Positions 1 through 26,651 of a stretch of DNA of 29,412 nucleotides are shown one piece after another. This stretch comes from a virus, in IMG/VR virus record IMGVR_UViG_3300030060_003740, positions 1 to 29,412 of that record, one strand, 5' to 3'. Made by a program: the position numbers and the translations under genes. Below the pieces are notes generated by a model that did no database searches, had not been told where the DNA came from, and saw only the letters and a program-made list of their open reading frames with translations. The first letter of the stretch is position 1; each line of letters begins with the position of its first letter.

Positions 1-3000
1 AAATCGTTTCCACATTTCTTTGTGTATAGTAGATACTTTTTGATTCCACTTTTCTATTTCTTTTTTATTAGATTTTATAGTTTTAGAATCTTTAAATATT
101 GTAGAATAACTTGAAACAGAAAAATTTTCAATACCATTTATTGGTTTACCAAAGCTTGAGTCAGGTAAATTCCTTAGTTGCTTTATTTTAGGTACAAGAA
201 CTTTGTTATATAAATCTTTATATTTTTGTTTTAAAACCGGATTATCACTAGAACCTACTATATAATAACTCGGTGTAAAAACAGTACCTCCGCCAGCACC
301 AAACCAAAAGTCTTTTGGCATTAAAGGTAAGAGTTGAGTTTTTATAGACTCAACAAATTCTTCTATACCTTCTTCTGTTTTTAAATCAAACGTATTAGAT
401 ATTTCATATTTAGCTAATAACTTATCAATACCTTTAGTTTCAAGTTCAAATAAATCTCTTATATTTAAAACTTCATCTACACTTTTACTAAACTTAACTG
501 TAGGATCTCTATCAATTTGTTTAGCTATAATAGCAGCTTCGTTTCTAGCTTGTACTTTACCTTCTAACTCTAGTATATCTTTTCTTTTTTCTTGTATTTC
601 AGGTTGTTGAACAGTCTCCATTGTAGCATCGAAAGCTAATTCAACACCCATCTCCATTGCTAGCTTATCTTTTCTAGTACCAAGCGTTGATGCTCCAACT
701 TTATAACCAAGTTGAGCTTCCATATCAACACCTCTAAAAAATGCCATTGTTTTATTTATACCAGGAAAACTTTTCTTTGTATGTAATTGTGGACCAGATA
801 ATCTATTAGTATCTTTAGGTAGTAAACCATCACTAATTAATTTATCTACTTCAGTAGGTTTCGTTATTCTTCTAGACTTTGTAAAAATCCTTTGTTCAGC
901 CGGTAAATTCCTTTCCATTTGAATTAAAGTTTCTACAGGTAGAGCATTAAATACTGCTTCAAAATTTTCTTGTAAAAATTTATCATAGTTATTTCTTGAA
1001 CCTATCATATCTTGTATAGGTTTTTTAAGCTCTGTTCTAAATCGTTTTTGTAGTTCAGTTCTAAACTGTTTAGATTGAACATCTGGTAGTTTTGTACCAA
1101 ACGTTTTAATAACAGCTTGACGAACTTTATTCATCATCTTATCGTCTAGTTTCAGCCTTCTTCTAAGCTTAGAATATTGTACCTGTTGTTCTTCAGTTAA
1201 ACCTATTCTGTCTATAAATTCTTGTTCAGCTGTAGTATCAGCTTCAACTTGTATTACTGGTGCTCCTTCTTCTGTTCTTGCATCTATATCTTGAGTGCGT
1301 TGTTCTACTTTATATTCTCTATTAAATACGTTACCAGCTTTATTAGCTATTTGAGCATTGACCCAACCAAAGAAACTATCGTTAACTTCAGGATTAAAGT
1401 TTTTAGCATGTGGTGTTAATTCAGAATAAACTTTTGAAACAAACTCTTGAGTTCTTTCAACATTCATTGGTACTTTTAATTTACTAGCTATTAATCTATC
1501 TAGTGTTTTATTTTCTTGCATTTCTTTTATTGCAAAATTAGCACCTTGATCTTTCCAAGTTTTAGCTGTCCAACCCATTTTACCTAGTTCGTCAACAACA
1601 GGTTTGGCATCTCTTGAGAACTTAGCTTCGTCAAACGTAACGTCTGCAGCTTTTCTAGTAACACCTTTACTCAGTGAACCTTTATGTATACTTTTATTAT
1701 AATCTTTTAAAAAGTTATAAGCTCCTCTACCAGTTTCAAAATCTATATTAGCATAACCAAGATCTGCGAAGAAACGTCTAATAACATCTTTTACTTGAGT
1801 AAACAAACTATCGTTAAATTTTATTTTGTTGTTTTCTACAAGATCAGAGAATATAGTGAAGTACTCATCTTTACTCCTAGCCATATACTCAGCATCGTAA
1901 TTATCATCTATACGTTTTTGTATTTTAGCTGCATTATCTTTACCAATAATATTTAAAAAATCATTTATTGTTTTTTGCGATATATTACCTAATTGACCGC
2001 TAGATTTTATTATACCATGTAGTAATTCGTGATTAGCTACATTGTCTCCATAAACTCTTTTCTTGGCTAAATCTTTATTTATAACTATCTTGTTCTCCAC
2101 TACTCCGCCTAAAGACTCTGCTAATTCATCTCCGTATTTAGCTCGTATTTCTTCTTGAGTTAAGTTGTCTTCTACTTCTAAACCATAAAGTTTACTATGC
2201 TTTTTAGCAAACTCCATATTAGCTTCAAAGTTTTTATCTGCTTGTTGTTCTAGCACTTTAGTTTTAACTTCTTCTCTAGCGGCAACTTCTTCAGTTGTTA
2301 CATCTACATCTTGATACTTATTAGTTATATCATCTATTTTGGTTTCAATATCTTTTAATGCGTTCTGATTTGATTTGGTATCTTGATCTTTTAATTTTCT
2401 TTTTATTTCAGTTCTTTGTATTTCTAAATCTACTAAAGTGTTTCTATCTTCACCAGTTACTTTAGTATCTACAACAGAATTGTAGTAAGCCTTTTGTTGT
2501 CTCTTAAATACATTAGCAGCATACTCGTTATCGTTTTGAATATCGATATCCATTAAAGCTAAATCAACATCATCAGCATTATCTATTATAGATTTAAACT
2601 TTGCTTCACCAACTTCTGTTCCTTTAATAGTATATTTAGGTTTATTAATTATAGCTTTACCACCAGAAACAGCTACATCTAGTGGTGCTTTAGCTAAACC
2701 GGCTATAGCTTCTAAAAGTATTTCTTTTTCATCTAGTGGTTTACCTTCTATAGTTAAACCTGCGGCTTCACCAAGCCCGCCACCAATTGCTTCTGCTGTT
2801 GCAGCGGCACCTGTTTGAGCTGTAGCAGTAACGACTCTACCAGCTACACCTTTACCTGTTGCTTTTGTTACAGCTTGACCAACTGTAAAAGCACCCTTAG
2901 CTCCTAATAAAGTGGATATACCCTCTACAGTACCTATAACACCTCCTCTTGCTATTGCTTTAGCTTGTATTTTATTTCTTGTTTTTTCATCAGATAAAAC

Positions 3001-3831
3001 AGTTCTTATATTATCAGCTGTAAAATCTAAGTTCTGCTTAGTTAGCTCGTCTTGTAATAAACCTTGAAACGAAAGCATGCTTTCTGTCATAAAGTTTGCT
3101 CCTGCAAAGAAACCACCCATAGCTCCAGCAGGTCCAGCAAGACCAGTACCAACTCCACCAATAGCAGTTCCAGCTGCTATAGATTGTTTATTAAATAATC
3201 TAGCCATACTCTGAACTGTGACTTGAGCTAAACCAGTTGCGCCTTTATCTTTAGTAGCAAGTAGAGTTGACATGAAAACATTTTCATCTTTTCTATATTT
3301 ATCATAAGCATCTGTCCACTCTTTAAGCTCTGTAAGTTCACCAGCTGCATTAGCTTTGTTTACTACATCAACATAAGCTTCAAAATCTTTATCTGTTAAG
3401 TCATCAAACTTCTTACCTAGCGCAACAGTGAATGTTTCATCTATAGATTGAGCTGATGGTATAGCGCTATATATAGCTTCACCTAAAGCTGTGGGATTTT
3501 CTTTTGTTCCTAATAATATTTCTGTATTTTTTTCACCTTGTTTTTGTAGAAGTTCACCTGCTTTAGTTTTTTTAAACCAGCCCATGAAGTCGTCTACCAT
3601 GTCTGTTAGTGCATTAGACTCTTGCGAATCCAAAGACCCATTGTCCGACTTTAAGTCCGTAGTATTTTGTTGATTGTTTTGGGACTGACCCGTCCCTTGA
3701 GACTTTCCCGGCTCATCAGATATTAGAACCGGATTGTATTTTCCGTATTTATCGAAAAACTTTTGTTCGTTGTTTAATGAAACATTTTTAAATATAGTTT
3801 CACCATTTAAATCAAATTGATATCTTTTCAT
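1..3831 (-). CDS. Giant internal virion/ejection-type protein with HExxH motif, partial (C-terminus beyond window)
   Basis: Starting at the ATG at 3831-3829 (MKRYQFDLNGE...), the frame stays open for 1277 codons to base 1, so the C-terminus is missing. It begins with about 90 polar, Q/N/S-rich residues. A Gly/Ala-rich hydrophobic stretch follows at about 218-247, then another at about 298-397, both suited to membrane contact. A K/E-rich helical segment spans about 458-557. Residues 601-605 read HELLH, a zincin-type HExxH zinc-binding motif. E656, in a DEYFTIFSDL context 51 residues later, could be a third zinc ligand. Length, membrane-like segments and a position after two smaller Ala/Gly-rich proteins resemble the end of a T7-like internal-core gene series or a phage polyvalent protein. 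I infer that it is packaged and enters the cell with the DNA. The leader has no Shine-Dalgarno sequence. The frame is certain; the function is not. Confidence 0.85.
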   Translation of the reverse strand, partial: MKRYQFDLNGETIFKNVSLNNEQKFFDKYGKYNPVLISDEPGKSQGTGQSQNNQQNTTDLKSDNGSLDSQESNALTDMVDDFMGWFKKTKAGELLQKQGEKNTEILLGTKENPTALGEAIYSAIPSAQSIDETFTVALGKKFDDLTDKDFEAYVDVVNKANAAGELTELKEWTDAYDKYRKDENVFMSTLLATKDKGATGLAQVTVQSMARLFNKQSIAAGTAIGGVGTGLAGPAGAMGGFFAGANFMTESMLSFQGLLQDELTKQNLDFTADNIRTVLSDEKTRNKIQAKAIARGGVIGTVEGISTLLGAKGAFTVGQAVTKATGKGVAGRVVTATAQTGAAATAEAIGGGLGEAAGLTIEGKPLDEKEILLEAIAGLAKAPLDVAVSGGKAIINKPKYTIKGTEVGEAKFKSIIDNADDVDLALMDIDIQNDNEYAANVFKRQQKAYYNSVVDTKVTGEDRNTLVDLEIQRTEIKRKLKDQDTKSNQNALKDIETKIDDITNKYQDVDVTTEEVAAREEVKTKVLEQQADKNFEANMEFAKKHSKLYGLEVEDNLTQEEIRAKYGDELAESLGGVVENKIVINKDLAKKRVYGDNVANHELLHGIIKSSGQLGNISQKTINDFLNIIGKDNAAKIQKRIDDNYDAEYMARSKDEYFTIFSDLVENNKIKFNDSLFTQVKDVIRRFFADLGYANIDFETGRGAYNFLKDYNKSIHKGSLSKGVTRKAADVTFDEAKFSRDAKPVVDELGKMGWTAKTWKDQGANFAIKEMQENKTLDRLIASKLKVPMNVERTQEFVSKVYSELTPHAKNFNPEVNDSFFGWVNAQIANKAGNVFNREYKVEQRTQDIDARTEEGAPVIQVEADTTAEQEFIDRIGLTEEQQVQYSKLRRRLKLDDKMMNKVRQAVIKTFGTKLPDVQSKQFRTELQKRFRTELKKPIQDMIGSRNNYDKFLQENFEAVFNALPVETLIQMERNLPAEQRIFTKSRRITKPTEVDKLISDGLLPKDTNRLSGPQLHTKKSFPGINKTMAFFRGVDMEAQLGYKVGASTLGTRKDKLAMEMGVELAFDATMETVQQPEIQEKRKDILELEGKVQARNEAAIIAKQIDRDPTVKFSKSVDEVLNIRDLFELETKGIDKLLAKYEISNTFDLKTEEGIEEFVESIKTQLLPLMPKDFWFGAGGGTVFTPSYYIVGSSDNPVLKQKYKDLYNKVLVPKIKQLRNLPDSSFGKPINGIENFSVSSYSTIFKDSKTIKSNKKEIEKWNQKVSTIHKEMWKRF

Positions 3832-3870: not shown

Positions 3871-5022
3871 TTAATCTGCAAATTCGTCTTCGTTTTGCAT
3901 TTCTGTTTGTCCTACTTGTAGATCTATAATTGCATCAGTTTTTTCCTCATCAGTTAAATTTGGATTGTTCATTATAAATTGATATTGATCTTGAACAGTA
4001 GAAGCTGTACCTCTACCTATACCAACAATTGGTGTTACGTATTGAGGATTTTGTTGAGCTGCATAATTAGAATAATAATCTATTAATTCAGCTTGTAGTT
4101 GATTAGTATACATTGTATCATTAATCATAGTGTTTGCTATCAATTGAGCTTCTTCATTATTGATACCATCTTTCCAGTTAACATCACTAGCATCAGCATA
4201 CTTATTTAATGTTACATCATTTAGACCTAAGTCAGCGTAGCTATTAGTTGTTAGCTTAGATACAACATCGTTATAAAATGTTCTACCTGGAATAATCTCA
4301 CTGTGAACTAATGATTTTGTTTTACCATTTTGTACCATTCTAGAAACACTATAGTTTATAGCTTTCATGTTTGGTTTTCTTTTGCTTTGTAATTGTTTAA
4401 TTGCTAAAGCTTCTATTGTTCCAGCGAAGTTTGTATCTTTAACATTATTACCTGCTATGTTTTTAAGTTCGCTTAGCGAAGTCCACCTGTCACCTAACAT
4501 AACTCCTAACTCATTTTTATTTTGAGCAGACTTACTAGGATTTTTCATAAGTTTATTTCTACCACTTACAGCGTCTAAGTATGCTTTTCCTTCTGGACTA
4601 TTTTTAAATATATCTAATAAACCATCTGGGCTATCAGCTAGTATAGCTGTGTTCTCAACTAAACCCTTATAGTCTTCATAGCTATTAGCTAGCTCAGATA
4701 AATCTTTCATAGCTAAAGTTCTACTTTTTTTACTACCTAAAATAAAATCGTTTCTACCACTTTGTAGATCGTCATATAAAGCTTCAAAGTTTTCATCAGT
4801 TAACATCACACCGTTGTTAGTAACGTTCTCTACGAACTCATCATACTGTCTACCAACTTCACCGAAGTATTGAGTTAATGCTAGACCAGTTTGTGCTATA
4901 CTACCTGCAGCTTTTGTTATAGCTTTGGATGCAGCTATATCTCCAGCTCCTTCTACTCTAGCTGCTCTATAAGCTCCGCTTGCTAAACCTGAAAATTTTA
5001 ATGGTGATTTTTTATCTTTCAT
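3871..5022 (-). CDS. Putative internal virion protein (383 aa)
   Basis: The frame is unbroken from ATG at 5022 to TAA at 3871. The protein is helical-looking. Residues 1-55 are Ala/Gly-rich, and the remainder is polar with many N, D and K residues. The start, residues 5-12 KSPLKFSG, closely resembles residues 5-12 of the upstream neighbour (KSPFKILG), which suggests a shared targeting or assembly signal. It lies 12 bases after that neighbour and 39 bases before the giant HExxH protein. This position matches the middle member of a three-gene internal-core set (compare T7 gp14, gp15 and gp16), but I see no sequence motif that proves the role. The C-terminus is acidic. It could also be another minor structural protein. 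Confidence 0.8.
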   Translation of the reverse strand: MKDKKSPLKFSGLASGAYRAARVEGAGDIAASKAITKAAGSIAQTGLALTQYFGEVGRQYDEFVENVTNNGVMLTDENFEALYDDLQSGRNDFILGSKKSRTLAMKDLSELANSYEDYKGLVENTAILADSPDGLLDIFKNSPEGKAYLDAVSGRNKLMKNPSKSAQNKNELGVMLGDRWTSLSELKNIAGNNVKDTNFAGTIEALAIKQLQSKRKPNMKAINYSVSRMVQNGKTKSLVHSEIIPGRTFYNDVVSKLTTNSYADLGLNDVTLNKYADASDVNWKDGINNEEAQLIANTMINDTMYTNQLQAELIDYYSNYAAQQNPQYVTPIVGIGRGTASTVQDQYQFIMNNPNLTDEEKTDAIIDLQVGQTEMQNEDEFAD

Positions 5023-5034
5023 ATTACTATTAAA

Positions 5035-6015
5035 TTATTGATTTACTTCTTCCGCATAGTTAGTAGTATACATTTGACCGTTCCACATGAATGTTTGGCC
5101 TGGTCCTTTTGCCGCTCTAGCTTGACTAAAAGCTTGTCCAAAGCTAACTGTATTTCCACCACTAATTGAAGACATTTGACTAGGATTAGTAGTATCTGAA
5201 TAACCTTCAGCATAACTTATACCACCTAAACTATTACCTTGAGAGTCAACATTATTTAATCTATTCATCTCTTCAAAATCTATATCAACTGTACCTTGTC
5301 TACCTACACCTTGTATATTATCAAAAGCTCCAGCTTGTAAACCTGCTATACCAGCTTGCGCGATACCACTAAAGGCACCACCAATAGCATTGTATCTTGC
5401 TTGCTGTGCTGCTGAAACCTGTTGTCCATATGCTGCTGTTTCTGCTTGAGCCATACCAAGTAAGCTAGTTACCTTTTGTCTTTCTTGTCCACGAGATATT
5501 AATTCACCTTGTCTTTCAAGAGTTTGTAATCTACCAGCTTCTCTTTGTCTTAGCATTTGATTTCTAGATTCTTGAGCTCCAATGCTAGCTGAAGATCTTT
5601 GAGCTTGTAATTGACCTTGTTGTGCCAATGCTTGTGCTACAGCTGCTACGCCGCTACCACCTGCCGCATCTCTAAGTCCACTAAGTATATTAGCTTGTGA
5701 TTGTTGAAATTGTTGTGATTCAAATTGAGCTTGCTTTTGGTTAACAGTTAAATCTTCCATAACGTTCTCCATATTTAAATACGGATTACTAGTATCTAAA
5801 TCTGAATAAACTTGTTTAAGTCTGTTCATTTCAGTTCTAGCCATACGTTCTTTTCGCTCCGCATCTCTTTGAGCTCTTCTAGCTCTTCCTCCACCAAATA
5901 TACCTCCAAGTAAAGATGAGCCAGCTGATATAATACTACCAGCTAAAGCAGGGTTTGCTGAAGCAAACGCTCCAACAGCTCCAAGTATTTTAAAAGGACT
6001 TTTTTCTTCTGCCAT
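5035..6015 (-). CDS. Putative internal virion/ejection protein, Ala/Gln-rich (326 aa)
   Basis: An N-terminal hydrophobic Ala/Gly/Ser segment at about residues 9-42 ends in a GGIFGGG turn and a basic GRARRAQRDAERKERMAR stretch. The following helical region to about residue 215 is extremely rich in Q, A and R and looks like a long coiled coil. After it comes a second Gly/Ala segment (AIGGAFSGIAQAGIAGLQAGA), then a polar tail. This plan, a membrane-like N-terminus followed by a long Gln-rich helix, is common in small ejection proteins of podoviruses, such as the T7 gp14 type. That role is inferred from architecture and position, since it heads the block of three internal-protein candidates. The ATG follows the A/T-only leader ACAAATAAT. 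Confidence 0.82.
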   Translation of the reverse strand: MAEEKSPFKILGAVGAFASANPALAGSIISAGSSLLGGIFGGGRARRAQRDAERKERMARTEMNRLKQVYSDLDTSNPYLNMENVMEDLTVNQKQAQFESQQFQQSQANILSGLRDAAGGSGVAAVAQALAQQGQLQAQRSSASIGAQESRNQMLRQREAGRLQTLERQGELISRGQERQKVTSLLGMAQAETAAYGQQVSAAQQARYNAIGGAFSGIAQAGIAGLQAGAFDNIQGVGRQGTVDIDFEEMNRLNNVDSQGNSLGGISYAEGYSDTTNPSQMSSISGGNTVSFGQAFSQARAAKGPGQTFMWNGQMYTTNYAEEVNQ

Positions 6016-7949: not shown

Positions 7950-9509
7950 TTATCCTTGTTCGTCTATTATGTTAATATTAAACCCAACGCCATTACCAGT
8001 AAAAGGTTCAAATGATAAATAATTATAACTATTATAGTAAAATGTATTTCCATCCAGCGTCTCGCCGTTTGCATTTTGAGTTGTTAATCCAGTAAGTGCT
8101 ATACCAAGTCTAGTAGAGTCATATAAATTTTCACTAAAAACATAATTTGGATTAAGTTCTAACCTAACCAAAACAGCATTTGTCTCTGTTCCGTAACCTT
8201 CAGTAGGAAATATTTCTGTAACTTGGTAGTCTTCAATACGTAATAATTGTTGGGATCCATAAGAATCGATTCCAGTAGCACTTATTGCGCTAGAAAAAAC
8301 AAAAGGTGCCATATCAGATTCAGGAAAATATGTACCATCTTGACCAGTGTTATTTAATCCAACACCTCCTATTGAACTTATTGCACCACCATACACTTGA
8401 AGTAAAGGTTGACAATTATCAGGGTTTATGTACAATGGTGTATGAGGTAAAGCCGGCTGAAGTGGAGCATTATTTCCAGTCTGAAAAGTTTCTCCACTAA
8501 ATGCAAAAGCAACAAACTTTATATAAACATATTGAGGTAGATTACCATTTAAAACACCATCTCCTTCTTCTAAATTAAATCTAATACTTTTATAACCTAC
8601 AGAAGCATCAATACCAGAATTAGTATGTGTAGGTCCGTAAAAATTATTAGGAATAAGAGTTGAGGCTTCGCTATCTTGATTTAAAAAATCAGGACCATCC
8701 TGATGAGTATGATATTCGTTTCCATTCTCATCAGAAATTATTCCAGTTACAAATACACTTTGATTAGAAAACTCACCATCTGGATCACAGCTGTCATTAT
8801 TAGTAAATATACCTGATACGTTATCCCCGGATCCTGGGACCCCAGAAGAGTATGTTGAAGAGGTATTAGAAGTATAACCAACACAATCAGAATTAAAAAA
8901 ATTTAACATTCTACCTCTTGGTATTATTTTTAAAGTACTTGTTGCAGTAGGCTGTGGCACTTCATATAAAACTGCAGCTCCATCAAAATCTATATTTATA
9001 GTTAAGTTATTATTCGGCATAACAAAAGTAGGGTTAAGTACTATAGTTGCTACAACTTTGTTACCTAGTGGATATGGAGGCTGGATAGTTGAAATATCAC
9101 CTAAATCGCTAAAGTATTGAAAAGCAACTGTATTTCTTAATGTTATACGTTCTATGTTTGGATATAACCAATCATAGTTAAAGGCTCCTGCAAATTGTTG
9201 ACTCCAACTAAATGATGCTATACCACTATCATTAGTTGTGTTATCTGGGGCTGGGAAAGCACTAGCCACTACACCTCCTAGCGTTATATTTGGTGCAGAT
9301 ATAGTATAACCAGGATCTGGCTCTATAACTAATACTTTGATATTAGGTTCAAGAAGAGAGTCTACTATCCAACTAGCATTAGTAACCGCTATAGCATTTT
9401 GTATAACAGGATCTGTTATTAATTGTTCTTCTATAAGTTGTACTCCATCACCTACATCTTCTAAAGAAGAATATGTTGTTACCGTACAGTTTAATAAATT
9501 TGTTGCCAT
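7950..9509 (-). CDS. Putative tail structural/appendage protein (519 aa)
   Basis: This beta-rich protein is full of N, T, S, P, G and aromatic residues with few lysines. It has the look of an extracellular adhesive or fibre protein. Scattered cysteines include C8 (NLLNCTV) and two in the middle (NSDCVGY and NDSCDPDGE). A His/Asp-rich patch reads EYHTHQDGPDF and might bind metal. Its ATG overlaps the stop of the 2368-residue tail gene in TAATG, so the two are probably translationally coupled and their products work together. Residue composition resembles the C-terminal part of that tail protein. A host-contact role is inferred from position and composition only. Confidence 0.78.
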   Translation of the reverse strand: MATNLLNCTVTTYSSLEDVGDGVQLIEEQLITDPVIQNAIAVTNASWIVDSLLEPNIKVLVIEPDPGYTISAPNITLGGVVASAFPAPDNTTNDSGIASFSWSQQFAGAFNYDWLYPNIERITLRNTVAFQYFSDLGDISTIQPPYPLGNKVVATIVLNPTFVMPNNNLTINIDFDGAAVLYEVPQPTATSTLKIIPRGRMLNFFNSDCVGYTSNTSSTYSSGVPGSGDNVSGIFTNNDSCDPDGEFSNQSVFVTGIISDENGNEYHTHQDGPDFLNQDSEASTLIPNNFYGPTHTNSGIDASVGYKSIRFNLEEGDGVLNGNLPQYVYIKFVAFAFSGETFQTGNNAPLQPALPHTPLYINPDNCQPLLQVYGGAISSIGGVGLNNTGQDGTYFPESDMAPFVFSSAISATGIDSYGSQQLLRIEDYQVTEIFPTEGYGTETNAVLVRLELNPNYVFSENLYDSTRLGIALTGLTTQNANGETLDGNTFYYNSYNYLSFEPFTGNGVGFNINIIDEQG

Positions 9510-12500
9510 TAGTCGTTAGGGTCGTTTTGTATTGTTAATGTATATTGATCTGGTTGATTTACGTCAGCACTAGTAATTGTCATCTCAACAGAAGCAATTG
9601 CCCCGTTACATAGATTTGCAAAATTTGTACTACCTACAGTTGTTTGTGACATGACATCAACAAGAGTAATTGAATCACTTATTGTAAATGTAAACGTTTC
9701 GTTGCTTTCAACAACACCAGGATTTGCGTATACTACTGCATATGCAACTTGATTATTAATAGATGTTAAGTTAGCCATCTCTATATTTATAGTAACATCA
9801 AGATTACCTCCTATATCACTTCCAGTTTGGTTTATATTGAGAATGTTTAAAGATCCTCCCCCTTGAATAAACTGTTGAGTAGGCGTTGGAGATGCAGTGA
9901 ATAATGTGTATTCAGTTCCAGGATTTAAATCACTTTGTACCCCAACGTTAGTAGCTGGATTTTGTATAAAAATACCAGCTTGTGTAACATTACTTTCAAC
10001 TACATTACCAAGTGCATTGCCACCAGAAACTAGTAAGTCAATTCCATCTTCAGAGGCAGCCGATATATAACCCGCTGTACCAAGTAAACTACTACCTGTT
10101 GTTGGACTATTAATAACACTATAAGGATAATTAAGACCTTCTTCAGCGTTTTGGAACTGCACCTCAAATACAACAACTTCACCTTCAGCCATCGTAGTTG
10201 AAACAACTCCATTTACATAAGGAGTTATACTTACTATACATGGATTAGCAGAGAACGTACAGCTACCATCATCTAATATAGCTGTTGAATCGTAGTTTTC
10301 AGCTGTAGGATCTGTACAACCAGTTGGTATTGGAGGTACATCTATACCACCAATAAGCCCTATACCTTGAACTGAAAATTCATTTGTATCTAAATTATCA
10401 AAGTTAGTTGTATCACCACTTATCTTGTTAAACCATTTATTTTCTTTATTTATAAATTCCGGTACACTACCAGTTTGCATATCAGTTTCAAATGATTCAA
10501 CATACCAACCTTTCTTTTCTGCTAGGTTATAGTACTCACCATCTGATAAATTTGTTATAGTATTTCCATTTGCGTCTGTAATAGTAGTTAAACCAGTAGC
10601 ATTATCAGTTGCTACATGTTTATTAACTCTAGCTTGTGTACCTTCATAGTTTACAGTTTGAAACGATTTAACTGAACCAGGTATGTCATTAAATAAAACA
10701 TCTATAGTAGATTCAGTATATTGTCCATAGAAAGTATTATAGTTTCCTACACCACCAATATTATCTATATAATGTTCGTATATATCAGCTCCTTTAACAG
10801 TAAAGTATTTACCACTAACAGAAACACCTTCGTCTTGTATAAATGATTTAAAACTAACCCAACCTTTAGAACCTTCATTAAATGATATTGTTTTACTATC
10901 ACTAACTCTTTCTATAGTTAAGTTATATTCTCCGTTTACTTTATCAAAGCTTCCAATTAAATCTTCACTGTTCTTTAGGTTTTCTCTAAAATAAGTTTTC
11001 ATACCTACATTAGATATAGGAGTTAAACCATCTCTTGATAATCTAAGTACAGCACCTCTTTGTTTATCAGTAAAGTACATCCTATATTGATCTGTTGCTA
11101 ATGATTCAGGATTTTTAGATATTCCATAATCACCAACAAATGGTATTGATTGACCTAATACTCTGTCAGTTGCTGTTAATTGTGGGTTACCATCTGCATT
11201 AAATAAAGCATCTTTGTTTGAAAGTAATTTCAACACTTTATCCTCTGTAAATACCACAACATCAGTATCTCTAGTTTTTAGAGCTTGTATTGATCCATAT
11301 GTTGGATTTAAATCTTTAGTTATTTTTTCTGCTATATTAAACTCATTCAGATCATTAATACCTGAAGTAGAGTTATATATACCAGAGTATATTAATCCAG
11401 AAGATCTAGTTTCTTCTTTATAATCTTCAAATGTTGTTGATACTCTAACCCCATTGTCTAGTTGAGTACCATTAAAATCATCTCTTATTCTATCAGACTC
11501 AACACCATTACCAAATGAGTAACAATTAAACCAACCTGGTTGAACTGGGTATTGCCAAACTTCACTATCTATTTCGTACCATCCAGTTGCTTGAGCTATA
11601 AATACTTGATATACAGTATTAGCTGCACCGTTACCTTGGTTCATCCAAGCAGTATCACTTATCCAAAAGTCATTTGTGTTACCAGAGTAATTATTTAAAA
11701 TTAAACCATTTGGTATACCATTGCCAAATATTGATATATCGTTATTGTTAGATATAGGTAAAGCATTTAGTAGGTTTTGATTACCTACATCTGTAAAAAT
11801 TACACCACCAGTAGCATCATTGTATTGAATACTTACATTGTACCACTGTTGTTTTTGTAATACATACACATCATTATTTCCATCACCATCTACATCTTGT
11901 ACTGTTCTAGAATAATAATTATTTACTTTACTTTTAGTTATTGTACCATCCTTGTGAGTAAAGCATATCATGGAACCTATACCTATTTTAGCTTTGTGTT
12001 CAGCTGTCACTCCATTAAGTTCGGATGATATACCTATAACTGGATTAGTAGCTGAGTAATCATAGCCAGATATATAAGGAGTAGTGTCATAAGTAGTGAA
12101 CGTACTATAAATTTCGTTACCTTGATTATCTATATAATAAGAATCTACTCCAGCGTTGGGTGGTACAAATGCTGTAGTATTACCTTTGTTTAGTGACATT
12201 GGTAAAGCTGGTGTAGCGTTATAGTATAATTCTAAATCTACATCTTCTTTTGGTTCTGTTTCCCAACACGCACCATCTTTAACATCAAAATCTTCTTGCA
12301 CACCACCAGCAGTACCTACTTCTTGCAATATGTTTATAACTAAATTTCTAGTAGAACCATCATGTGCATTTACAGCTCTTGGATCAGGATCTACATCTAA
12401 GTCTATACCAGTATTTAGTTCTTGATTGTTTTCTCCTAATTTTCTAAATTCAAATCTAACACTATGTCTACCACAACCTGCATGTATACCTGGGCCTAAA

Positions 12501-15500
12501 TTATCACATATACCACATGTTTGATCACCTGGATGAGTTGTACCTATAATAACATGATCACCGTCAAGATTTGTTGAACTATGAACATCAATAGGACCAA
12601 TAGGTCCAACTGCAGTACTATTAGCCTCTACAGAATCTATTATGTTTTGATAAAATTGAGAAGCGCCTTCGTCCCATTCTCCAAACGATGAGTAGCTTTC
12701 TGAACTAGACCATAAATGTGCAACATTAAAAGGACCACCTGAACCTATAGCAAAAAGCTCTGGATTTACTTGATCAAAATCAACAGCTATATTGAAATTT
12801 GGAGGAACCATTACTCCCCAATAGGCTACCGGAAAAGTAAAATCTTCACCGTACTCTACAGCATTGTAGCTATACAAAGCGCTACTACCACCGGTGTTAG
12901 CAAGAACATAACTTTCAGAATAAAGCTCATGCCAATTTTGATTACCGGCATTAGCCCATGTAGGGTGACCAAAGTTACGTATAATATTTGTCTCTTGCTC
13001 TGCACTTATTACCTTATAGTGTACACCTGGATTATTTGCGAATTCAAATATTGTCCCAGGGGTAGTCATGTAGTCTATGTATATTTGGTCTACATTATTA
13101 AACGCAGGAGCTTGATTAAGAGTTTGAGTAGATATTCTCATTCTACCTAAAGTACCATCTGTCAATGTACCGTAATCTAAAGGAGTTGGTTTATAATTGT
13201 ACCAAGTATCTCCTGGAGTGTTCTCCCAGTCAGTAGCTCTAGCTCCATCTAAAAATAAACCAGCATTAGTACTGTTTTCCCATTGCTGCCAAAAATTTCT
13301 AGTTTCATCTCCATAATTTAATATAGTAAGATTACCGTTAAGTTGGTCTGTCCAAGATACAGCATCTGATAAATCTAAATTATCTTGGCCAACACAACCA
13401 AGGGCCATGTAGCTGGCTTCATAAGAATTAGCAAAACTTCCATCAGCCCACTCATACGCAGGATTATTATCATTGTTAGTACCATCACCACCATAATCTC
13501 CACCAATACCAGGATTATATTTTTGAGAATCTATATAAGCTAAGTTAAAGCTATCTAGTTGTCCCCAGTATTCTGTACTTGACTTACCAGACTGCAGTGC
13601 GCTTAATAGTGTAGCATCTTTTTCTACTAATACAAAAAATCTACCATCAAACTCTGGTTTGTTTTCTACAACTTCTTCTTTAAATTCTACATTGTAAGTT
13701 AAAAGATTAGTTGATGTATTTAAAGCTAATGTTATTGGTACACCATTTTGATCAGTTGAGCCAGCAGCTAAAGCATTAGTGAATCTAGTAAAGAAGTCTA
13801 CTTCTGATACACCAAAGTCATCATTGCCAAAAGGTTCATTCCAAAATATTTGAGCGTGAGTAGTACCTCCAATTTCAGGACTAGAATAGTGTGTTAGAGT
13901 TTTCCAAGAACTATATAAAACGTTATTTACAGCTTGAGTAGAATTATTAACTGTTCTACCTACAAACCTAAACTTTATAGTACCTCGATTTGTAGTTCTA
14001 GAGAAATTATATCTATCAAGTAAGTTTTTAAAAGATGCTTGACCTATTAATAAAGATGTAGAACTAATTAAAACACTCGGCACACTAGTTGATGTATCTG
14101 GAGGAACTGGAGGTGCTTGTATAGTAAATAAAGCTGCAGCTGGATCAATTGTATTACCATCTGTGGTATCTAATGTAACTAATCCCATTGTTCTATGATC
14201 TATCTTTATAAAATCTGGAGCTTCATTTTCTATTGCTATAACTTTGTACCTTGCTTTGTCTACTACAGGTATTTGGTTACCGTGTTCGTTTTTAAGTAAT
14301 AGATATGTTTCTTCGTCTATTTTATTTCTATCAGCTGAAGGGAAAGATAACCACATATTCTCTCTCTTCTCAGCATAGTACCAACGATCCATTACTAAGT
14401 TGTAATATTCGCTAGTTGTTTCTTTTACGTAATACTTTACGTATTCCATCCAGTCTTCTGGTTGACCATTGCCTAACACTTGACTCTCCCACTCTTGTTG
14501 TAATTTAAAAGTATTTTTTAATGGAGCTAAATCCTTTTCAGTAACAATATCACCAGAAAAACTTTCAAAGTTGTTGCCATCACCTATAGTATAACCAGAT
14601 GTTATAACAGGTGTTTCTCTACCGTACTTGTCTCCAAATACCATACCCCATTTATAACTTCTAATAGATTTAATAGATTTTTGTGGATCGTTTAGCGTTG
14701 CTGAGTTATCACTAGATAAACTTTGAACTAAGTTTACTGGAAAGTTTATATCGTAGTTTTGAGTATAGTTACCATAAACAATTCTGTTTGATGTAACCTC
14801 TTGTGCTTTTGCATATCTAGGTACGTTATCAAAAGCTCTTAATATTTGATTAGATGGTAAAACTCTATGAATCATCTCTGATGTTATATTGAGTTCACCA
14901 GTTTGTATAGAGTCATCACCTGTTATAGGACCTGGAGTAAACAACTCCCACTCTGCATCCTTTTCTTTTTCTATAGTTTTAACAACATATATATTAGGTG
15001 AGTCAGCTGTTTTAAATAGTATGTCAATAGCTTTTATATCAAAAGGCCTATCAGTATGTAGTGGTATAAAATCTTTTATTACTAACTCTCTAATGGTATT
15101 AACCATACCTAAGTTAAAAGCTTTAGTAACTACATAATCAAAATTACCTGGTCTAAAAACTATTTCAGAAAATGGTGAGAAACTAGAGTACTCTCCATCT
15201 TCATATTTATATCTGTAGCCAAACCTAGGAAATTTTAATTCAAATAAAGGTTTTGGTAAGTCTACACTTATGTCGTAAGTTTGTGTGTCAGCACCATCAA
15301 AAACCTCTTGCGATATACTTATTAATTCTATAGATATAACATTAGTTGGTACTAAACTTAATTCAAGATCAACTACATTGACTTGCTCTGTACCATCCGC
15401 TAATACAACAGTTTCAGTTATTTGGTTTTGATATGATATAAATTTAAACTTTATTATAGTATCAGTATCGTTATCTATAAACTTGAGAATATCATTAGGT

Positions 15501-16615
15501 TTATATTTAGTAGAATAAAACTCATCGTTAGTTATATTAAATATATCACCAATGTTATCTTCTGTTAATCCAAAGTTAAAATCAATAGTAGCTTCTAAAT
15601 CAGCTTCTTCTCTAGTTTTAACTTCTATTGTTGGAGGATATAATGGAGCTTTCCTTATTACTGTTATATGCTTTTCTAATAAATCAGCACTAGCAGATAT
15701 TAAAGATTGATCTGAGTCGTTTGGAAACTCTAAGTCAACAGCTTCAACTAATTGTTTAGTTATAGGATGTTCAACCATTAACTTTGTATGACTAGTAAAA
15801 CCAGCTGTACCTTCTTTACATCTTGTAATGTTTATTTTCTTTGGTTCAGTTCTACCGTCTGTATAAAATAATAAATCATCAATTATATTTATACCAGTTA
15901 TTTTATCTCTAGCTATATTGCTGGTTGGTCTTAAGTTTAATAACTTAGGATGCTCAAAAAGAAAACCTTGTAAAGGTAAACCATAACCATCTGTAAACGT
16001 AGATATATCTAAAGTTTGTTCACTATATAAAGTAACTACGTTTCCATTAATAGCTTTTATTTTTGCATTATTAAATTGATCTACACCGTCTGTATCAAGA
16101 GCTTTTATTGTCATGTCAACTCTAAGGGACGATGCATCATTTAAAGTTATCTGTGTCCAAACTCCATTTTGTAATACAGGAAAATTAGCTGAACTTACCG
16201 CCGTACTAAATGGTTGTGCAACCGCGTAGACATCTACTACAACCGGAGTTGTTGTACCTAAAACACTTTGTTCTATTATAGCTTCAGTCCATATAACATC
16301 TTGTGATGGAAACTGCTCTATTGTATTTGGTTGTATAGGATTATTATTGTAGAATAAAAAATAAGCTACGTCATTTTTTTCATCAACTACACTACCAGCA
16401 CATTGATGATTTAACAAGTCTCCTTGTGAACTACCTATAATACTATTACCTTTTATGTTTTGAACAGAACCTGCGTCGCCAATACCATCATCACCACCAG
16501 ATGTGGTTCTGACCTGAATATTCATAGCATCACGGTACTCACCGTTTGGAACAAGTCTTTCGTCAAGATCCTTGTTCATCTTTCCGCCTGTGAAAGTGTG
16601 TTTAATTTCTGGCAT
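9509..16615 (-). CDS. Giant tail nozzle/stabilization-type protein (2368 aa)
   Basis: The N-terminus (MPEIKHTFTGGKMNKDLDER, then a VPNGEYRDAMNIQV-type stretch) matches what I recall from tail 'stabilization' or nozzle proteins of crAss-like and marine environmental phages. Those proteins occupy the place of P22 gp10 or T7 gp12. Residues 1-850 and about 1760-2060 look like the core; the latter has YFTDKQRGAVLRLSRDGLTP. Between them lies a long Trp/Asn/Gly-rich insertion holding CGIC at 1367-1370, C1381 and H1384. After about 2060 there is a Cys-bounded motif (C2100 to C2119) and an Ig-like tail. The protein is several times longer than T7 gp12 (about 790 residues). It lies 6 bases after a connector gene and overlaps the next gene by one base. 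Tail placement is fairly secure; exact homology is not. Confidence 0.85.
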   Translation of the reverse strand: MPEIKHTFTGGKMNKDLDERLVPNGEYRDAMNIQVRTTSGGDDGIGDAGSVQNIKGNSIIGSSQGDLLNHQCAGSVVDEKNDVAYFLFYNNNPIQPNTIEQFPSQDVIWTEAIIEQSVLGTTTPVVVDVYAVAQPFSTAVSSANFPVLQNGVWTQITLNDASSLRVDMTIKALDTDGVDQFNNAKIKAINGNVVTLYSEQTLDISTFTDGYGLPLQGFLFEHPKLLNLRPTSNIARDKITGINIIDDLLFYTDGRTEPKKINITRCKEGTAGFTSHTKLMVEHPITKQLVEAVDLEFPNDSDQSLISASADLLEKHITVIRKAPLYPPTIEVKTREEADLEATIDFNFGLTEDNIGDIFNITNDEFYSTKYKPNDILKFIDNDTDTIIKFKFISYQNQITETVVLADGTEQVNVVDLELSLVPTNVISIELISISQEVFDGADTQTYDISVDLPKPLFELKFPRFGYRYKYEDGEYSSFSPFSEIVFRPGNFDYVVTKAFNLGMVNTIRELVIKDFIPLHTDRPFDIKAIDILFKTADSPNIYVVKTIEKEKDAEWELFTPGPITGDDSIQTGELNITSEMIHRVLPSNQILRAFDNVPRYAKAQEVTSNRIVYGNYTQNYDINFPVNLVQSLSSDNSATLNDPQKSIKSIRSYKWGMVFGDKYGRETPVITSGYTIGDGNNFESFSGDIVTEKDLAPLKNTFKLQQEWESQVLGNGQPEDWMEYVKYYVKETTSEYYNLVMDRWYYAEKRENMWLSFPSADRNKIDEETYLLLKNEHGNQIPVVDKARYKVIAIENEAPDFIKIDHRTMGLVTLDTTDGNTIDPAAALFTIQAPPVPPDTSTSVPSVLISSTSLLIGQASFKNLLDRYNFSRTTNRGTIKFRFVGRTVNNSTQAVNNVLYSSWKTLTHYSSPEIGGTTHAQIFWNEPFGNDDFGVSEVDFFTRFTNALAAGSTDQNGVPITLALNTSTNLLTYNVEFKEEVVENKPEFDGRFFVLVEKDATLLSALQSGKSSTEYWGQLDSFNLAYIDSQKYNPGIGGDYGGDGTNNDNNPAYEWADGSFANSYEASYMALGCVGQDNLDLSDAVSWTDQLNGNLTILNYGDETRNFWQQWENSTNAGLFLDGARATDWENTPGDTWYNYKPTPLDYGTLTDGTLGRMRISTQTLNQAPAFNNVDQIYIDYMTTPGTIFEFANNPGVHYKVISAEQETNIIRNFGHPTWANAGNQNWHELYSESYVLANTGGSSALYSYNAVEYGEDFTFPVAYWGVMVPPNFNIAVDFDQVNPELFAIGSGGPFNVAHLWSSSESYSSFGEWDEGASQFYQNIIDSVEANSTAVGPIGPIDVHSSTNLDGDHVIIGTTHPGDQTCGICDNLGPGIHAGCGRHSVRFEFRKLGENNQELNTGIDLDVDPDPRAVNAHDGSTRNLVINILQEVGTAGGVQEDFDVKDGACWETEPKEDVDLELYYNATPALPMSLNKGNTTAFVPPNAGVDSYYIDNQGNEIYSTFTTYDTTPYISGYDYSATNPVIGISSELNGVTAEHKAKIGIGSMICFTHKDGTITKSKVNNYYSRTVQDVDGDGNNDVYVLQKQQWYNVSIQYNDATGGVIFTDVGNQNLLNALPISNNNDISIFGNGIPNGLILNNYSGNTNDFWISDTAWMNQGNGAANTVYQVFIAQATGWYEIDSEVWQYPVQPGWFNCYSFGNGVESDRIRDDFNGTQLDNGVRVSTTFEDYKEETRSSGLIYSGIYNSTSGINDLNEFNIAEKITKDLNPTYGSIQALKTRDTDVVVFTEDKVLKLLSNKDALFNADGNPQLTATDRVLGQSIPFVGDYGISKNPESLATDQYRMYFTDKQRGAVLRLSRDGLTPISNVGMKTYFRENLKNSEDLIGSFDKVNGEYNLTIERVSDSKTISFNEGSKGWVSFKSFIQDEGVSVSGKYFTVKGADIYEHYIDNIGGVGNYNTFYGQYTESTIDVLFNDIPGSVKSFQTVNYEGTQARVNKHVATDNATGLTTITDANGNTITNLSDGEYYNLAEKKGWYVESFETDMQTGSVPEFINKENKWFNKISGDTTNFDNLDTNEFSVQGIGLIGGIDVPPIPTGCTDPTAENYDSTAILDDGSCTFSANPCIVSITPYVNGVVSTTMAEGEVVVFEVQFQNAEEGLNYPYSVINSPTTGSSLLGTAGYISAASEDGIDLLVSGGNALGNVVESNVTQAGIFIQNPATNVGVQSDLNPGTEYTLFTASPTPTQQFIQGGGSLNILNINQTGSDIGGNLDVTINIEMANLTSINNQVAYAVVYANPGVVESNETFTFTISDSITLVDVMSQTTVGSTNFANLCNGAIASVEMTITSADVNQPDQYTLTIQNDPND

Positions 16616-22087: not shown

Positions 22088-24418
22088 TTAAGGAGTAAGC
22101 CTACCCATAGCGGCGTCTCCCGTAACTATATCATTACCTGACGACTCAAACTTTTTAAGAGGTTCACCCTGCTTTTTTTCATCTCTCTTCATAAGTATTT
22201 CACCATCAAGATTTTTTAATCTTGAATTTAAATCAAATTCAAAAGCCATTAAATCTTTTTTAACTCTAGCTTCTTCTTCTAAATACTGTATCTTTAATTC
22301 ATTTTTAGATTGTTCAAGTTGAGCGTCGGTTTGGGCTTTAGCTTGATTCTTTTGTACTTCTGCTTGAGCTGCAACTTGTTGAGCTTGAGCATTAGCTTGT
22401 GATTGAGCTTGTATATTCTGTTGTTGTAGTATTTGATCTCTCTCTTGTTTCTTTCTTCTTTTTACTTTTAATAGTTGGTTAGCAAGCTTTATATTTCTTA
22501 CGTTACGTAAATCAATTGCATCATCTAAGTCTATTAAACCTTGACTAAGTGCAACTTGTATATTGTTTTCTAATATAGCTTTTTCTTCTTCATCTGGCAT
22601 AAGTTCTATAAATATACCAAAGTCATAAAGGTGTAACTCTTTTAATTCTTCAAGTGTAGCTACATTGTGAGCACCTATAGCTCTTATAAAAGCTTCTCTT
22701 GTTGGAGAGTACTCAACTATATCAGATATTCTAAGTGATAAGCACTCAGCAACCTCAGCAGTTACATATAGCATTGATTGTAGTATATGTCTAGTTGCTG
22801 TATTTGAATTAGCAGCAGCAAGCTTTTGCACTCCAACTAAAGCGTTTTTATCTGGGTTACTACCATCTCTCGCTTCATTTAAACCCGTAGTATCTCTAAT
22901 CATCTGTAGATAGTAGTTGTAAGTTGTAATTAAACTTTGTAACTTACCACTATTAACTCCATTACTTATTTGTTGTATTGGAACTTTACCTGGGTTGATA
23001 TCTCCATCAGCAGTAAAGCTTCTACCAATAACACTACCAGTTTGGAAGAACATATTTAATGCTTCTTGTGGGTTGTAGTTTGTACCATTGCCAAGATCTA
23101 TTTCAGCTAAACCATCAGCATCTAAGTATACTCCATCAGGAACCATACGCGCCATAACCTGTTGTATCTTCAAGTGAGTTAATTGAATCATGTCAGCAAA
23201 ACCTGTTATTCTACTAACTAAAGATTCTATTTTACCTCTATACATTCTTGGTGCTACTATTTGATAAGGCATTTTAACTTTAGTAAAATCTGAATCTGAC
23301 CTCATCATATTATCCATCATTCTCCATCTTAACAATTTATTTGCACCTACTATATATACACCTTCGTATAGACACTCAACAACTCTTTCAAGTTTTTGAA
23401 AATCACCGTCTTTGTTTTTAGGTGGATTAAATGTATCGTCTTTTTCTATAACCTTCTCCGCACCGCTAGCAACAGTCTTCAATTTATAAACATCGTTCAT
23501 ATATGTTTTATAATTAAAATATAACACTTGAACTTTATTTTTATCTGTAGTTGTTTTGTAATGAGCGTTTTCGTAAGGAGCTGCTCCAGAAGTATCTGTT
23601 ATAGTTTTTATTTCTTCTTGTGTTAAATCTGGAAACTCTTTAACTAATTCGTTTATTGGTATTTCTTTTATTTCACCAACATAATATATATCATCAAAAT
23701 ATGGTGATTCAGTGTAAGAGTAAACCATGTTTGCTGGATCTACGTATTCTACTTCTGCACCACTACTAAAGTCAAATGTCGTTTTAGTTGAAGCTATACC
23801 AAGAGTCGTTAAGTCGTATAAGCATCTTCTTCTAACTAAATCGTAATCACTATTTTCTAATAAAACATTTATAGCCTGCTCTTCCGCTAACTCAACTGCT
23901 TGTTTATAGTTAAGTTGCATATGAAGCGCAAGCTCTTCTTCTGTATCTGGCAAAGTATCTTTATCGTTTTCGTAAAGATCTACTCCAAATTGCTGTTGTG
24001 CTAAGTCGTTATATTCTTTAGATCTTATATCTCTTAGCATAGACTCCATATATTCTGTTCTTTTGCTAATACCATACTCGTCTTGAGAAAAGCAGTTTAT
24101 CTCATAGTTTCTTTGAGCCATACCGTTTACAACGATATCTACAAACTTAGGAATAATAGGTACAGGCTTCCAATCTAAATTTAAATAAGATAAATCACCA
24201 TTAATTGATAATTCATTTTTATACTTTTGTATTGATTGTTCACCTCTTGCGTATAATCTTAATTGATGATATTGATTTTCATTGGTGTTATACTTAGATG
24301 ATATTCCTTGAAACCACTCGTATTTTATTGCGTTAGCTACTTGAAGTCCGTAATCTTCACTTAGTTTTTCTAAATCACTTACTGCCTGTGAAGGAAAGTT
24401 TATAACAGAATATGCCAT
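22088..24418 (-). CDS. Portal protein (776 aa)
   Basis: The gene follows the large terminase by one base and precedes the scaffold candidate, the expected portal place. Size suits crAss-like-type portals. The early region YHQLRLYARGEQSIQKYKNE and then LSYLNLDWKPVPIIPKFVDI is, from memory, close to portals of that group. The middle contains a clip/stem-like region (LTHLKIQQVMARMVPDGVYL). The last 125 residues are a long Gln/Ala/Lys-rich coiled coil (QQQNIQAQSQANAQAQQVAA and onward), longer than needed for the crown of small portals. It forms the packaging ring at one capsid vertex. The start reads ACAATAACATGGC with no Shine-Dalgarno sequence. Confidence 0.86.
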   Translation of the reverse strand: MAYSVINFPSQAVSDLEKLSEDYGLQVANAIKYEWFQGISSKYNTNENQYHQLRLYARGEQSIQKYKNELSINGDLSYLNLDWKPVPIIPKFVDIVVNGMAQRNYEINCFSQDEYGISKRTEYMESMLRDIRSKEYNDLAQQQFGVDLYENDKDTLPDTEEELALHMQLNYKQAVELAEEQAINVLLENSDYDLVRRRCLYDLTTLGIASTKTTFDFSSGAEVEYVDPANMVYSYTESPYFDDIYYVGEIKEIPINELVKEFPDLTQEEIKTITDTSGAAPYENAHYKTTTDKNKVQVLYFNYKTYMNDVYKLKTVASGAEKVIEKDDTFNPPKNKDGDFQKLERVVECLYEGVYIVGANKLLRWRMMDNMMRSDSDFTKVKMPYQIVAPRMYRGKIESLVSRITGFADMIQLTHLKIQQVMARMVPDGVYLDADGLAEIDLGNGTNYNPQEALNMFFQTGSVIGRSFTADGDINPGKVPIQQISNGVNSGKLQSLITTYNYYLQMIRDTTGLNEARDGSNPDKNALVGVQKLAAANSNTATRHILQSMLYVTAEVAECLSLRISDIVEYSPTREAFIRAIGAHNVATLEELKELHLYDFGIFIELMPDEEEKAILENNIQVALSQGLIDLDDAIDLRNVRNIKLANQLLKVKRRKKQERDQILQQQNIQAQSQANAQAQQVAAQAEVQKNQAKAQTDAQLEQSKNELKIQYLEEEARVKKDLMAFEFDLNSRLKNLDGEILMKRDEKKQGEPLKKFESSGNDIVTGDAAMGRLTP

Positions 24419-24419
24419 G

Positions 24420-26651
24420 TTATTGTTTTATTATTGTTGATTGAAATCCTTTGTTATTATATCGGGATATAGTTAGGTTTAATGGTTGTTTCTTTTGTTT
24501 TGGATTTGGTCGGTATAAATGTCTATTGCAAGCCATTATTGCTAGACCTGTACTAATTGAAGCATCGTGCTTTGTTCTTTTGTTTATATCAAACTTAGAC
24601 CAGTCATTTAACGTTTCGTTAAAATACATATTACCGTAAGTTCCATCTTCTAATAATCCAATGTGATCGTTAATATACATTTCAATTGCAGCAGCATGAG
24701 CTTGCTTTATATCTTCACTTGAGTTTGGTATACCACCAACTTCTTTTTCTGCTGTTGATAATTTATTCCAGATCTTGTCTGGCCTATTCATACTAAAGCC
24801 TCTATATCCTCTTCTTCTTAAATAGTATAATAATCTTGGTTTATTATTCTCTGCAAGTATCGGCATACCGTAAAATACTAAAGACATTAAAACATCTTCA
24901 AAAAATATTTCAGCGGTTTGAGGTCTAGCTATATATTCTAAAAAGAAAGTATTAGCTGGAGCATCTTCCATTGAGAACTTTGTTAATCCGTGTAAAGCAC
25001 CTTTCGATCCTTTACTATCTACTGTTCCTGATATATCATACGAGTCACAGCCAAACGCTCCCATGTGTTCATTACCTGGATATTTAACTCCATTTTTTAG
25101 TATTACATTATTTTGTAATTCAACTCCTGGTACCCAACTTATTTTAAATCTACCATTAGGATCTGGGTTAAAAACAACTTGAGTGTCTTTAACTCCATTC
25201 ACCCATTGAAAATTACCAGTTGTTAATACAGATGAGTTTTTGTTTCCTTCGTTATAATCTATTTGCTCGTATATTTTTATAAGATTAAATAAACTATTTT
25301 TTGTCTCATCTCTAAATGCGTGTTCTTCTGTTCTAGGAAACTGACGGTAAAATTCGTTTAAAGCGTCTTGGTCATCTCTCAAACCTTCTGCTTCATTTTC
25401 CCAATGATCGATTACACCTTGTTCTATTTCTATTCCATGTGGATCAATTGCGGGTTGCTCAGGAGTGCTAAACACAGGTCGTCCGTATCTGTCAATGAAT
25501 CCTTCATAATTCCATTCCATAGGAATAAACAAAGAATATAATCCTGACTTAGTCTGTCCATTGCGGTTTCGTTTTGATACATCTGAATTGTAGTATAAGT
25601 TTCTGAAGTTTTCTCCACCTTTATCAAGAGCATTACTTGTTGAGCCCATCATACACTTTCCGATTATTCTACTTCCTAATCTCAAGCAAGTTTTTGTAAC
25701 TCTCCAATTGTTTTTTATATTATCAGGTTTCTCCCACTTACCACTCTCATCGTGTACTAACAGAGAAAGCTTCTCACCATCATAACTATTATCACCTGTG
25801 TTCTTCCAGTCGATAGTTGTATCAAGACCTTCCATATCATCTATCTCCTCTCTTTCACGTATCTTTTTACGTGTAAACTTTTTAGCAGGAACTCTATATG
25901 CAAGCTCTGACTTTGGTCTATCCATACCATCTTGTATAGGTTTAAAGAAGAAAGGATAATTTAAACTAATCGGTACAACTTTATCTGTAAACATCTTTTT
26001 AGCATCTGCACCAGATTTAGATAATATACCAAATCTACTATCACTTGCTAATGTTGCTTGGTTGACTGTTTCAGCTGAACTCATAAATGAAAAACCAGAT
26101 CGTCTGTTCTTCAAGTAACACATACCGTAGCATCTGTTATCTGCTTTACAAGCTTCCCAAAATATAAAGAACAATCTGTTTGCATCTCTAAAATCAGGAG
26201 CACCAACATCTATCTTACTCCACTGTAGATACATATAATGTGTACCTGTTATGTAAGTTGGTTCACCGTTATTCATAAACCAAAATCCTTCTTCTCTTCT
26301 TTTAAACTCTTCGTCTATATATCCATAATGTTTTTCTTTAAAATCATCTGGATATGTTTGCCAATCAAAAACTGTTTTAATTCTTTTAAAATCAGGATTA
26401 GCTGGAAACTGTTTCCATTTTTGTTCTTCTTTGTTTTTGCTACAAGCATAAACTTCTTTTGGTTGTTTTGGTAATGCTATTTTTAATCCTTGTACTTCTA
26501 GCACGTCACCAATCATACCAGTTTTAGATATCACAACTACGTCATTTTCTTTATTATAACCATACTTCCACTTTTTAGATTTATTTAATCTACTTATAGT
26601 GTTTAATCGTATTGGTTCTATTATTTTATATAAAGTTTGTTCGTACGTCAT
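24420..26651 (-). CDS. Terminase large subunit (packaging ATPase/nuclease, 743 aa)
   Basis: This is the motor that pumps and cuts genome DNA. A terminase-style Walker A lies at residues 181-188 (KNRRSGFS). Walker B lies at 295-302 (LSLLVHDE, with D301 and E302). A coupling motif GSTSN sits at 336-340. The nuclease half has GCDSYD at 534-539, giving D536 and D539 as metal ligands, and D696 in KHDASIS as the likely third. The protein is larger than most terminases because of about 150 N-terminal residues before the ATPase core. Its ATG overlaps the stop of the small-terminase candidate in ATGA, and the portal gene follows one base after its stop. The function is secure from motifs and order. 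Confidence 0.93.
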   Translation of the reverse strand: MTYEQTLYKIIEPIRLNTISRLNKSKKWKYGYNKENDVVVISKTGMIGDVLEVQGLKIALPKQPKEVYACSKNKEEQKWKQFPANPDFKRIKTVFDWQTYPDDFKEKHYGYIDEEFKRREEGFWFMNNGEPTYITGTHYMYLQWSKIDVGAPDFRDANRLFFIFWEACKADNRCYGMCYLKNRRSGFSFMSSAETVNQATLASDSRFGILSKSGADAKKMFTDKVVPISLNYPFFFKPIQDGMDRPKSELAYRVPAKKFTRKKIREREEIDDMEGLDTTIDWKNTGDNSYDGEKLSLLVHDESGKWEKPDNIKNNWRVTKTCLRLGSRIIGKCMMGSTSNALDKGGENFRNLYYNSDVSKRNRNGQTKSGLYSLFIPMEWNYEGFIDRYGRPVFSTPEQPAIDPHGIEIEQGVIDHWENEAEGLRDDQDALNEFYRQFPRTEEHAFRDETKNSLFNLIKIYEQIDYNEGNKNSSVLTTGNFQWVNGVKDTQVVFNPDPNGRFKISWVPGVELQNNVILKNGVKYPGNEHMGAFGCDSYDISGTVDSKGSKGALHGLTKFSMEDAPANTFFLEYIARPQTAEIFFEDVLMSLVFYGMPILAENNKPRLLYYLRRRGYRGFSMNRPDKIWNKLSTAEKEVGGIPNSSEDIKQAHAAAIEMYINDHIGLLEDGTYGNMYFNETLNDWSKFDINKRTKHDASISTGLAIMACNRHLYRPNPKQKKQPLNLTISRYNNKGFQSTIIKQ

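Follow-up and report, generated by a model that had tools for sequence, protein, structure and literature searches.

The ejection-protein sets of the phages T7, N4 and DEV comprise an outer-membrane pore, a periplasmic tunnel and a giant protein that reaches the cytoplasm (PMC12633501, PMC10925440). Zincin MPTases, characterized by an HExxH motif, are the commonest domain of the polyvalent proteins of phages (Iyer et al. 2017, PMC5512222), for which either self-processing or host targeting was proposed. P1 DdrB is cleaved before packaging, and the virion RNA polymerase (vRNAP) of N4 bears an HExxH domain, yet is packaged unprocessed; self-cleavage is therefore not general (PMC5512222). The N4 zincin was unified with lethal factor (4dv8) in the same study.

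The window, a stretch of 29,412 nucleotides (positions 1 to 29,412 of IMG/VR virus record IMGVR_UViG_3300030060_003740), holds at its left edge a three-gene block that resembles the podovirus ejection-protein operons (T7 gp14/15/16, N4 gp51/52/50, DEV). The last gene of the block (1..3831, minus strand) runs, as a preliminary description of this DNA had read it, from an ATG at 3831 to base 1 over 1277 codons with zero stops, and in-frame stops lie just 5′ of the ATG. Base 1 of the window is also base 1 of the 35,218-base record, so the protein is cut off there: these are the N-terminal 1277 residues of a putative giant ejection or cargo protein whose C-terminus is absent and whose complete relatives measure about 2,030-3,420 aa. 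Going by the shortest of these, roughly 850 or more residues are probably missing. Directly upstream, a 383-aa protein (3871..5022, minus strand) takes, judged by position only, the place of a periplasmic-tunnel (T7 gp15-like) ejection protein. The second gene upstream encodes a 326-aa protein (5035..6015, minus strand) that resembles T7 gp14 in size, composition and position. Wherever a locus includes upstream DNA (44/44), the giant gene has one gene of 320-850 aa on its upstream side, preceded in turn by a homologue of the 326-aa protein. All of these loci thus show the podovirus ejection-trio arrangement of three neighbouring genes, one of them giant, and the two smaller internal-protein candidates proposed earlier are confirmed by position. 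One contig (L003:1-430) is 98% identical to the window protein across 43 residues and then unrelated, reflecting either an assembly chimera or a recent recombination.

Further upstream on the same strand lie the genes for the terminase, the portal, the capsid region and a 2368-aa protein. The latter (9509..16615, minus strand) is a structural protein of the virion whose C-terminal domain is a tail muzzle of crAss type (Pfam PF25729, 2.8e-6, above the cut-off; phrog_14478). By its portal and large terminase (22088..26651, minus strand), the phage groups with flavobacterial podoviruses. Terminase identity is 63% with MW202828, an uncultivated 60.8-kb circular podovirus, and about 46% with the Elemovirus phages of Flavobacterium (BAL314); further relatives infect Cellulophaga, Tenacibaculum (Gundel_1) and Maribacter. 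The source is an uncultivated podovirus-like phage, kin to phages of aquatic Flavobacteriia. A scan of genome contigs gave a single match in one Maricaulis bin, and Maricaulis is not trusted as a host. A GroES-like PHROG match lies at window positions 26865-27452. To the right of the window end, at contig positions 30065-31874 (L004:1066-2875), a complete GroEL (Cpn60, 2.5e-57) and GroES (5e-12) pair is found. Beyond it, a 140-aa ORF (L004:3468-3890, minus strand; contig about 32467-32889) contains HEMKH followed by a Glu further on; it gave no Pfam match and is a possible second small zincin.

A tblastn search of phages with the window protein gave no matches even at E 10. In most relatives examined, a giant gene likewise ends the same virion block: elemoC gp20 (3694 aa), phi38:1 gp101 (1691 aa), Gundel_74 (2482 aa), Panino_69 (1829 aa) and the MW202828 giant (UOF82488, 3859 aa). 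One further gene follows gp120 (1439 aa) in phi46:3. Among these syntenic giants, elemoC gp20, phi38:1 gp101 and Gundel_74 are annotated as structural, some of them by similarity only. Together with the operon position, the annotation of the relatives' last giant gene as a virion structural protein lends indirect support to the earlier suggestion that the window protein is packaged. It is probably packed in the virion shell and injected into the bacterium, and would be expelled from the head ahead of or with the DNA.

Relatives of the giant protein were collected in two ways. A first set was obtained from IMG/VR scans with patterns lying both outside and inside the zincin domain, yielding 45 loci, a few of them from the same contigs, in which the protein spans 2135-3252 aa where complete. 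As these patterns touch the zincin domain, a held-out set was assembled by scanning IMG/VR with the C-terminal region only. Full-length relatives share the order Gly/Ala-rich N-terminus, zincin, variable regions, HAD-like phosphatase and a 640-residue C-terminal region, and thus combine several disparate domains per chain, as polyvalent proteins do. The Gly/Ala-rich N-terminal region of the window protein (residues 120-520; 2272..3474, minus strand) matches phrog_32588 at residues 124-508, and its family profile matches the MW202828 giant and, weakly, phi38:1 gp101. Long hydrophobic Gly/Ala stretches had been described here: the Gly/Ala richness is evident at about residues 218-400, but hydrophobicity is weak, with mean hydropathy above 1.3 in only one 19-residue window, which does not establish a clear membrane span. 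A variable region (residues 740-925; 1057..1614, minus strand) is common to a subset of relatives. Within it, FNPEVNDSFFGWVNAQIANKAGNV resembles sigma-70 region 2 by eye (residues 790-840), and the relative L019 (2222 aa) carries a similar stretch, DLIRAYDPNKGVPLAAYINDNLPKRAI; a PDB profile search gave no support for sigma-70, and the likeness was set aside. The HAD-like domain matches DUF2608 in 19/20 members and PF12710 weakly in 6/20. It falls in the piece missing from the record, the window protein ending before it. In some relatives (L010:8198-17953, L041, L049) it seems degenerate, present in duplicate or interrupted by an insertion, with motif I lost or moved. The C-terminal region (for example L019:13187-15133) gave no convincing Pfam or PDB match; it occurs in at least 591 confirmed IMG/VR stretches and in zero of 50,697 phage records, and zincin-bearing giants with this conserved region have so far been seen only in uncultivated viruses.

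The putative active site is marked by HELLH at residues 601-605 (2017..2031, minus strand), in which His601 and His605 are putative metal ligands and Glu602 the putative general base. Conservation and modelling point to Glu656 (1864..1866, minus strand), at the start of the glutamate helix, as the third ligand. Residues 525-720 would thus bind Zn2+ via His601, His605 and Glu656, with Glu602 activating water. The chance expectation for HExxH in the window protein is 0.003 (7 His, 98 Glu), and the window's remaining 16 main genes hold none (0.09 expected). In the first set, every sequence (46/46) has His601, Glu602 and His605, and wherever Glu656 is covered it is likewise invariant (45/45), so the motif is retained in every relative of this set that can be aligned. 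The held-out loci were fetched only through the C-terminal domain, and invariance among them therefore escapes selection bias: across 49 sequences aligned by the zincin profile, both His and the downstream Glu are present in 49/49, and Glu602 in 47/49, with two Asp. Among the 66 held-out proteins of sufficient length, HExxH is found in 62 and HDxxH in four (L082, L096, L097 and L125, reading HHDxxH, with Asp replacing the general base); the downstream Glu is kept in the two of these that align.

An AlphaFold (AF2) model of the zincin domain (residues 525-720; 1672..2259, minus strand), built with 42 sequences, reached a pLDDT of 83.2 and a pTM of 0.81. The predicted fold contains the elements of a zincin in the expected order: three short strands, HELLH within helix 78-93 and Glu656 (model residue 139) opening helix 139-149, model residue 1 being residue 518. 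The motif is placed in a core helix with a third ligand available, not in an exposed or coiled-coil helix lacking one. The preliminary description had recognized a gluzincin pattern in HELLH and the downstream E656, and the positions are confirmed and the assignment supported: Glu at the general-base position of a helical HExxH and a Glu in a downstream helix are the gluzincin-type (MEROPS clan MA(E)) features. Of the 29 rows listed by VIA-align, 27 are HExxH metalloenzymes (zincins). The best are the lethal factor catalytic domain (Z 5.5), PPEP-3 (5.0) and IrrE (4.1), with collagenases, YbeY and selecase also represented, although a Z of about 5 is weak alone and can mean only a common arrangement. 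VIA-align on the first model gave the same picture as on the second. Foldseek alone returned no significant PDB match for either model, and no zincin match came from searching Pfam, PHROG and PDB sequences with either the window protein or family profiles. A BFVD model of the elemoC structural protein matches the window zincin model with probability 0.99. The strength of the fold assignment lies in a ranked list of one class combined with predicted helices that bear invariant residues. Members of family M34 (lethal factor and PPEP), the best rows at Z values in the common-arrangement range, have an active-site Tyr seven residues before the Glu ligand. Tyr649 occupies this position relative to Glu656 and is present in 41/45 near relatives. 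In the held-out set it is found in 6/49 and is thus not conserved, so MEROPS M34 membership was rejected and none is claimed. Position and predicted site together indicate that the window ORF very probably encodes a zincin-bearing ejection protein.

A short recurrent motif marks the linkers of the long chain. Two copies lie in the window protein: KFSRD at residues 737-741 (1609..1623, minus strand), just after the zincin, and VKFSKS at residues 1112-1117 (481..498, minus strand). The pattern [VILAM][KRQ][FY]S[KR][ST], noticed first and counted afterwards, occurs 39 times in 39 proteins against 0.34 expected, and never in 122,549 aa of control ORFs taken from their loci; many copies stand at homologous positions and hence are not independent. 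The held-out set repeats the enrichment (45 against 0.70 expected in proteins with the zincin profile). Copies follow the zincin, flank the HAD-like domain on either side and stand between variable regions, with up to five per protein. The zincin, HAD and C-terminal domains take in 36% of random positions but none of the 39 sites, although HAD edges were set by hand at segment cutting and nearness of the motif to a HAD edge is partly built in. When 4-mers were ranked by within-protein repeat, FSKS came first (14/39 proteins) and KFSK second (12/39), the shuffle maximum being 5; an unbiased search for internal 7-mer pairs, underpowered for a motif of 5-6 residues, did not surface it. Across the six phage records examined, no syntenic giant carries the motif, and a text search of Iyer et al. 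(PMC5512222) gave no mention of such a recurrent linker motif.

Taken as a whole, these observations are best explained, with moderate confidence, by a giant multi-domain ejection protein whose zincin most likely acts in cis on its linkers. The protease would cut its own chain, or sister copies, at inter-domain linkers, with the recurrent [VI]KFSKS linkers as candidate cleavage sites, and would thereby set free the HAD-like enzyme together with other modules, either in the head or once delivered. For multi-domain polyvalent chains generally, processing in cis may be considered at least as likely as attack on the host (PMC5512222). For this chain, we judge self-processing the more likely job than host-envelope attack, and the chances that it is the main one are about even. 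The linker motif as a processing signal for the embedded protease is a lead, not a result: its distribution also fits other linker functions, such as partner binding or unfolding for ejection. A search for covariation between the motif and zincin type found none; the copy after the HAD-like domain is retained alongside divergent HExxH types. A broader version, in which giant ejection proteins are self-cleaving phage polyproteins whose embedded zincin cuts a reusable [VI]KFSKS tag between modules, so that one chain yields several enzymes in the new host and modules are swapped together with their tags, is conceivable but rather improbable.

The same triad and fold evidence would also serve for an injected effector protease whose substrates, once it is delivered, are host proteins of the envelope, of defence or of regulation; the preliminary description had proposed action on the host envelope or proteins at entry. 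Its closest folds include lethal factor and PPEP, which are substrate-specific endopeptidases, and IrrE/PprI, which cut regulators. Host targeting is among the options listed by Iyer et al. (PMC5512222). A mid-chain domain with many others around it, retained across very diverse relatives, is more readily explained by a function in the chain itself than by a fast-evolving target in the host, and the effector reading is possible but doubtful. Somewhat less probable still, and unlikely overall, is a metal-binding HExxH domain devoid of peptidase activity, with a structural role or one in RNA cleavage or hydroxylation. The HExxH endoribonuclease YbeY is among the fold matches, HDxxH appears in four relatives, of which two belong to the 49 aligned sequences, and the authors of the N4 vRNAP study weigh a zincin against radical SAM-linked HExxH chemistry (PMC12633501). 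Against this, Glu602 is kept in 46/46 and 47/49 sequences, the His residues and downstream Glu are invariant in the gluzincin arrangement, and peptidases form most of the fold matches. That the HExxH arose by chance, in some coiled or structural stretch of an internal protein, might be argued from the shortness of the motif and the non-significant Foldseek E-values. This reading has a negligible probability and is refuted by conservation, with the motif in 46/46 and His in 49/49 sequences and a co-conserved Glu656. Only 0.003 motifs are expected per protein, and a confident AF2 model places this one in a core helix.

Self-processing by the zincins of injected phage giants is a question raised in 2017 (PMC5512222) that is now simple to test, since single residues can be named both for the active site and for the candidate linker sites. 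The weight of the finding would rise if the linker motif proved to be a cleavage signal; were the polyprotein model true, one ejected chain would yield several separate enzymes in the new host. The family is well represented in environmental viromes, to judge from the IMG/VR counts of its C-terminal domain, which gave no match in the phage records.

Several described systems can be compared with the window protein. It shares the position of last gene in a syntenic virion block, and a weak N-terminal profile match, with Cellulophaga phage phi38:1 gp101, which differs in being without HExxH. Elemovirus gp20, Gundel_74 and MW202828 UOF82488 are syntenic giants, each carrying HExxH once or twice; they differ in that their zincins are missed by the window-family profile, and UOF82488 shares with the window family the N-terminal region only. 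N4 vRNAP gp50, whose ejection partners are gp51 and gp52, is likewise a giant and the third protein of its ejection set; it combines an N-terminal region of membrane type with an HExxH domain and a large C-terminal part made up mostly of helices (PMC12633501). It belongs to another phage lineage, and the window zincin is N-terminal, not placed after an RNA polymerase; Pfam searches, of weak sensitivity here, gave no match to an RNA polymerase domain in the window protein or three full-length relatives. Lethal factor, tied to the N4 zincin in PMC5512222, is also among the best fold matches of the window zincin. With polyvalent proteins (Iyer et al. 2017, PMC5512222), the giant protein shares a large multi-domain chain in a late-virion-gene setting, a zincin with HExxH and a Glu helix, and further enzyme domains; it differs in a zincin without any Pfam match and in its domain set. 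The giant protein represents a new family within the already known polyvalent, zincin-bearing injected proteins.
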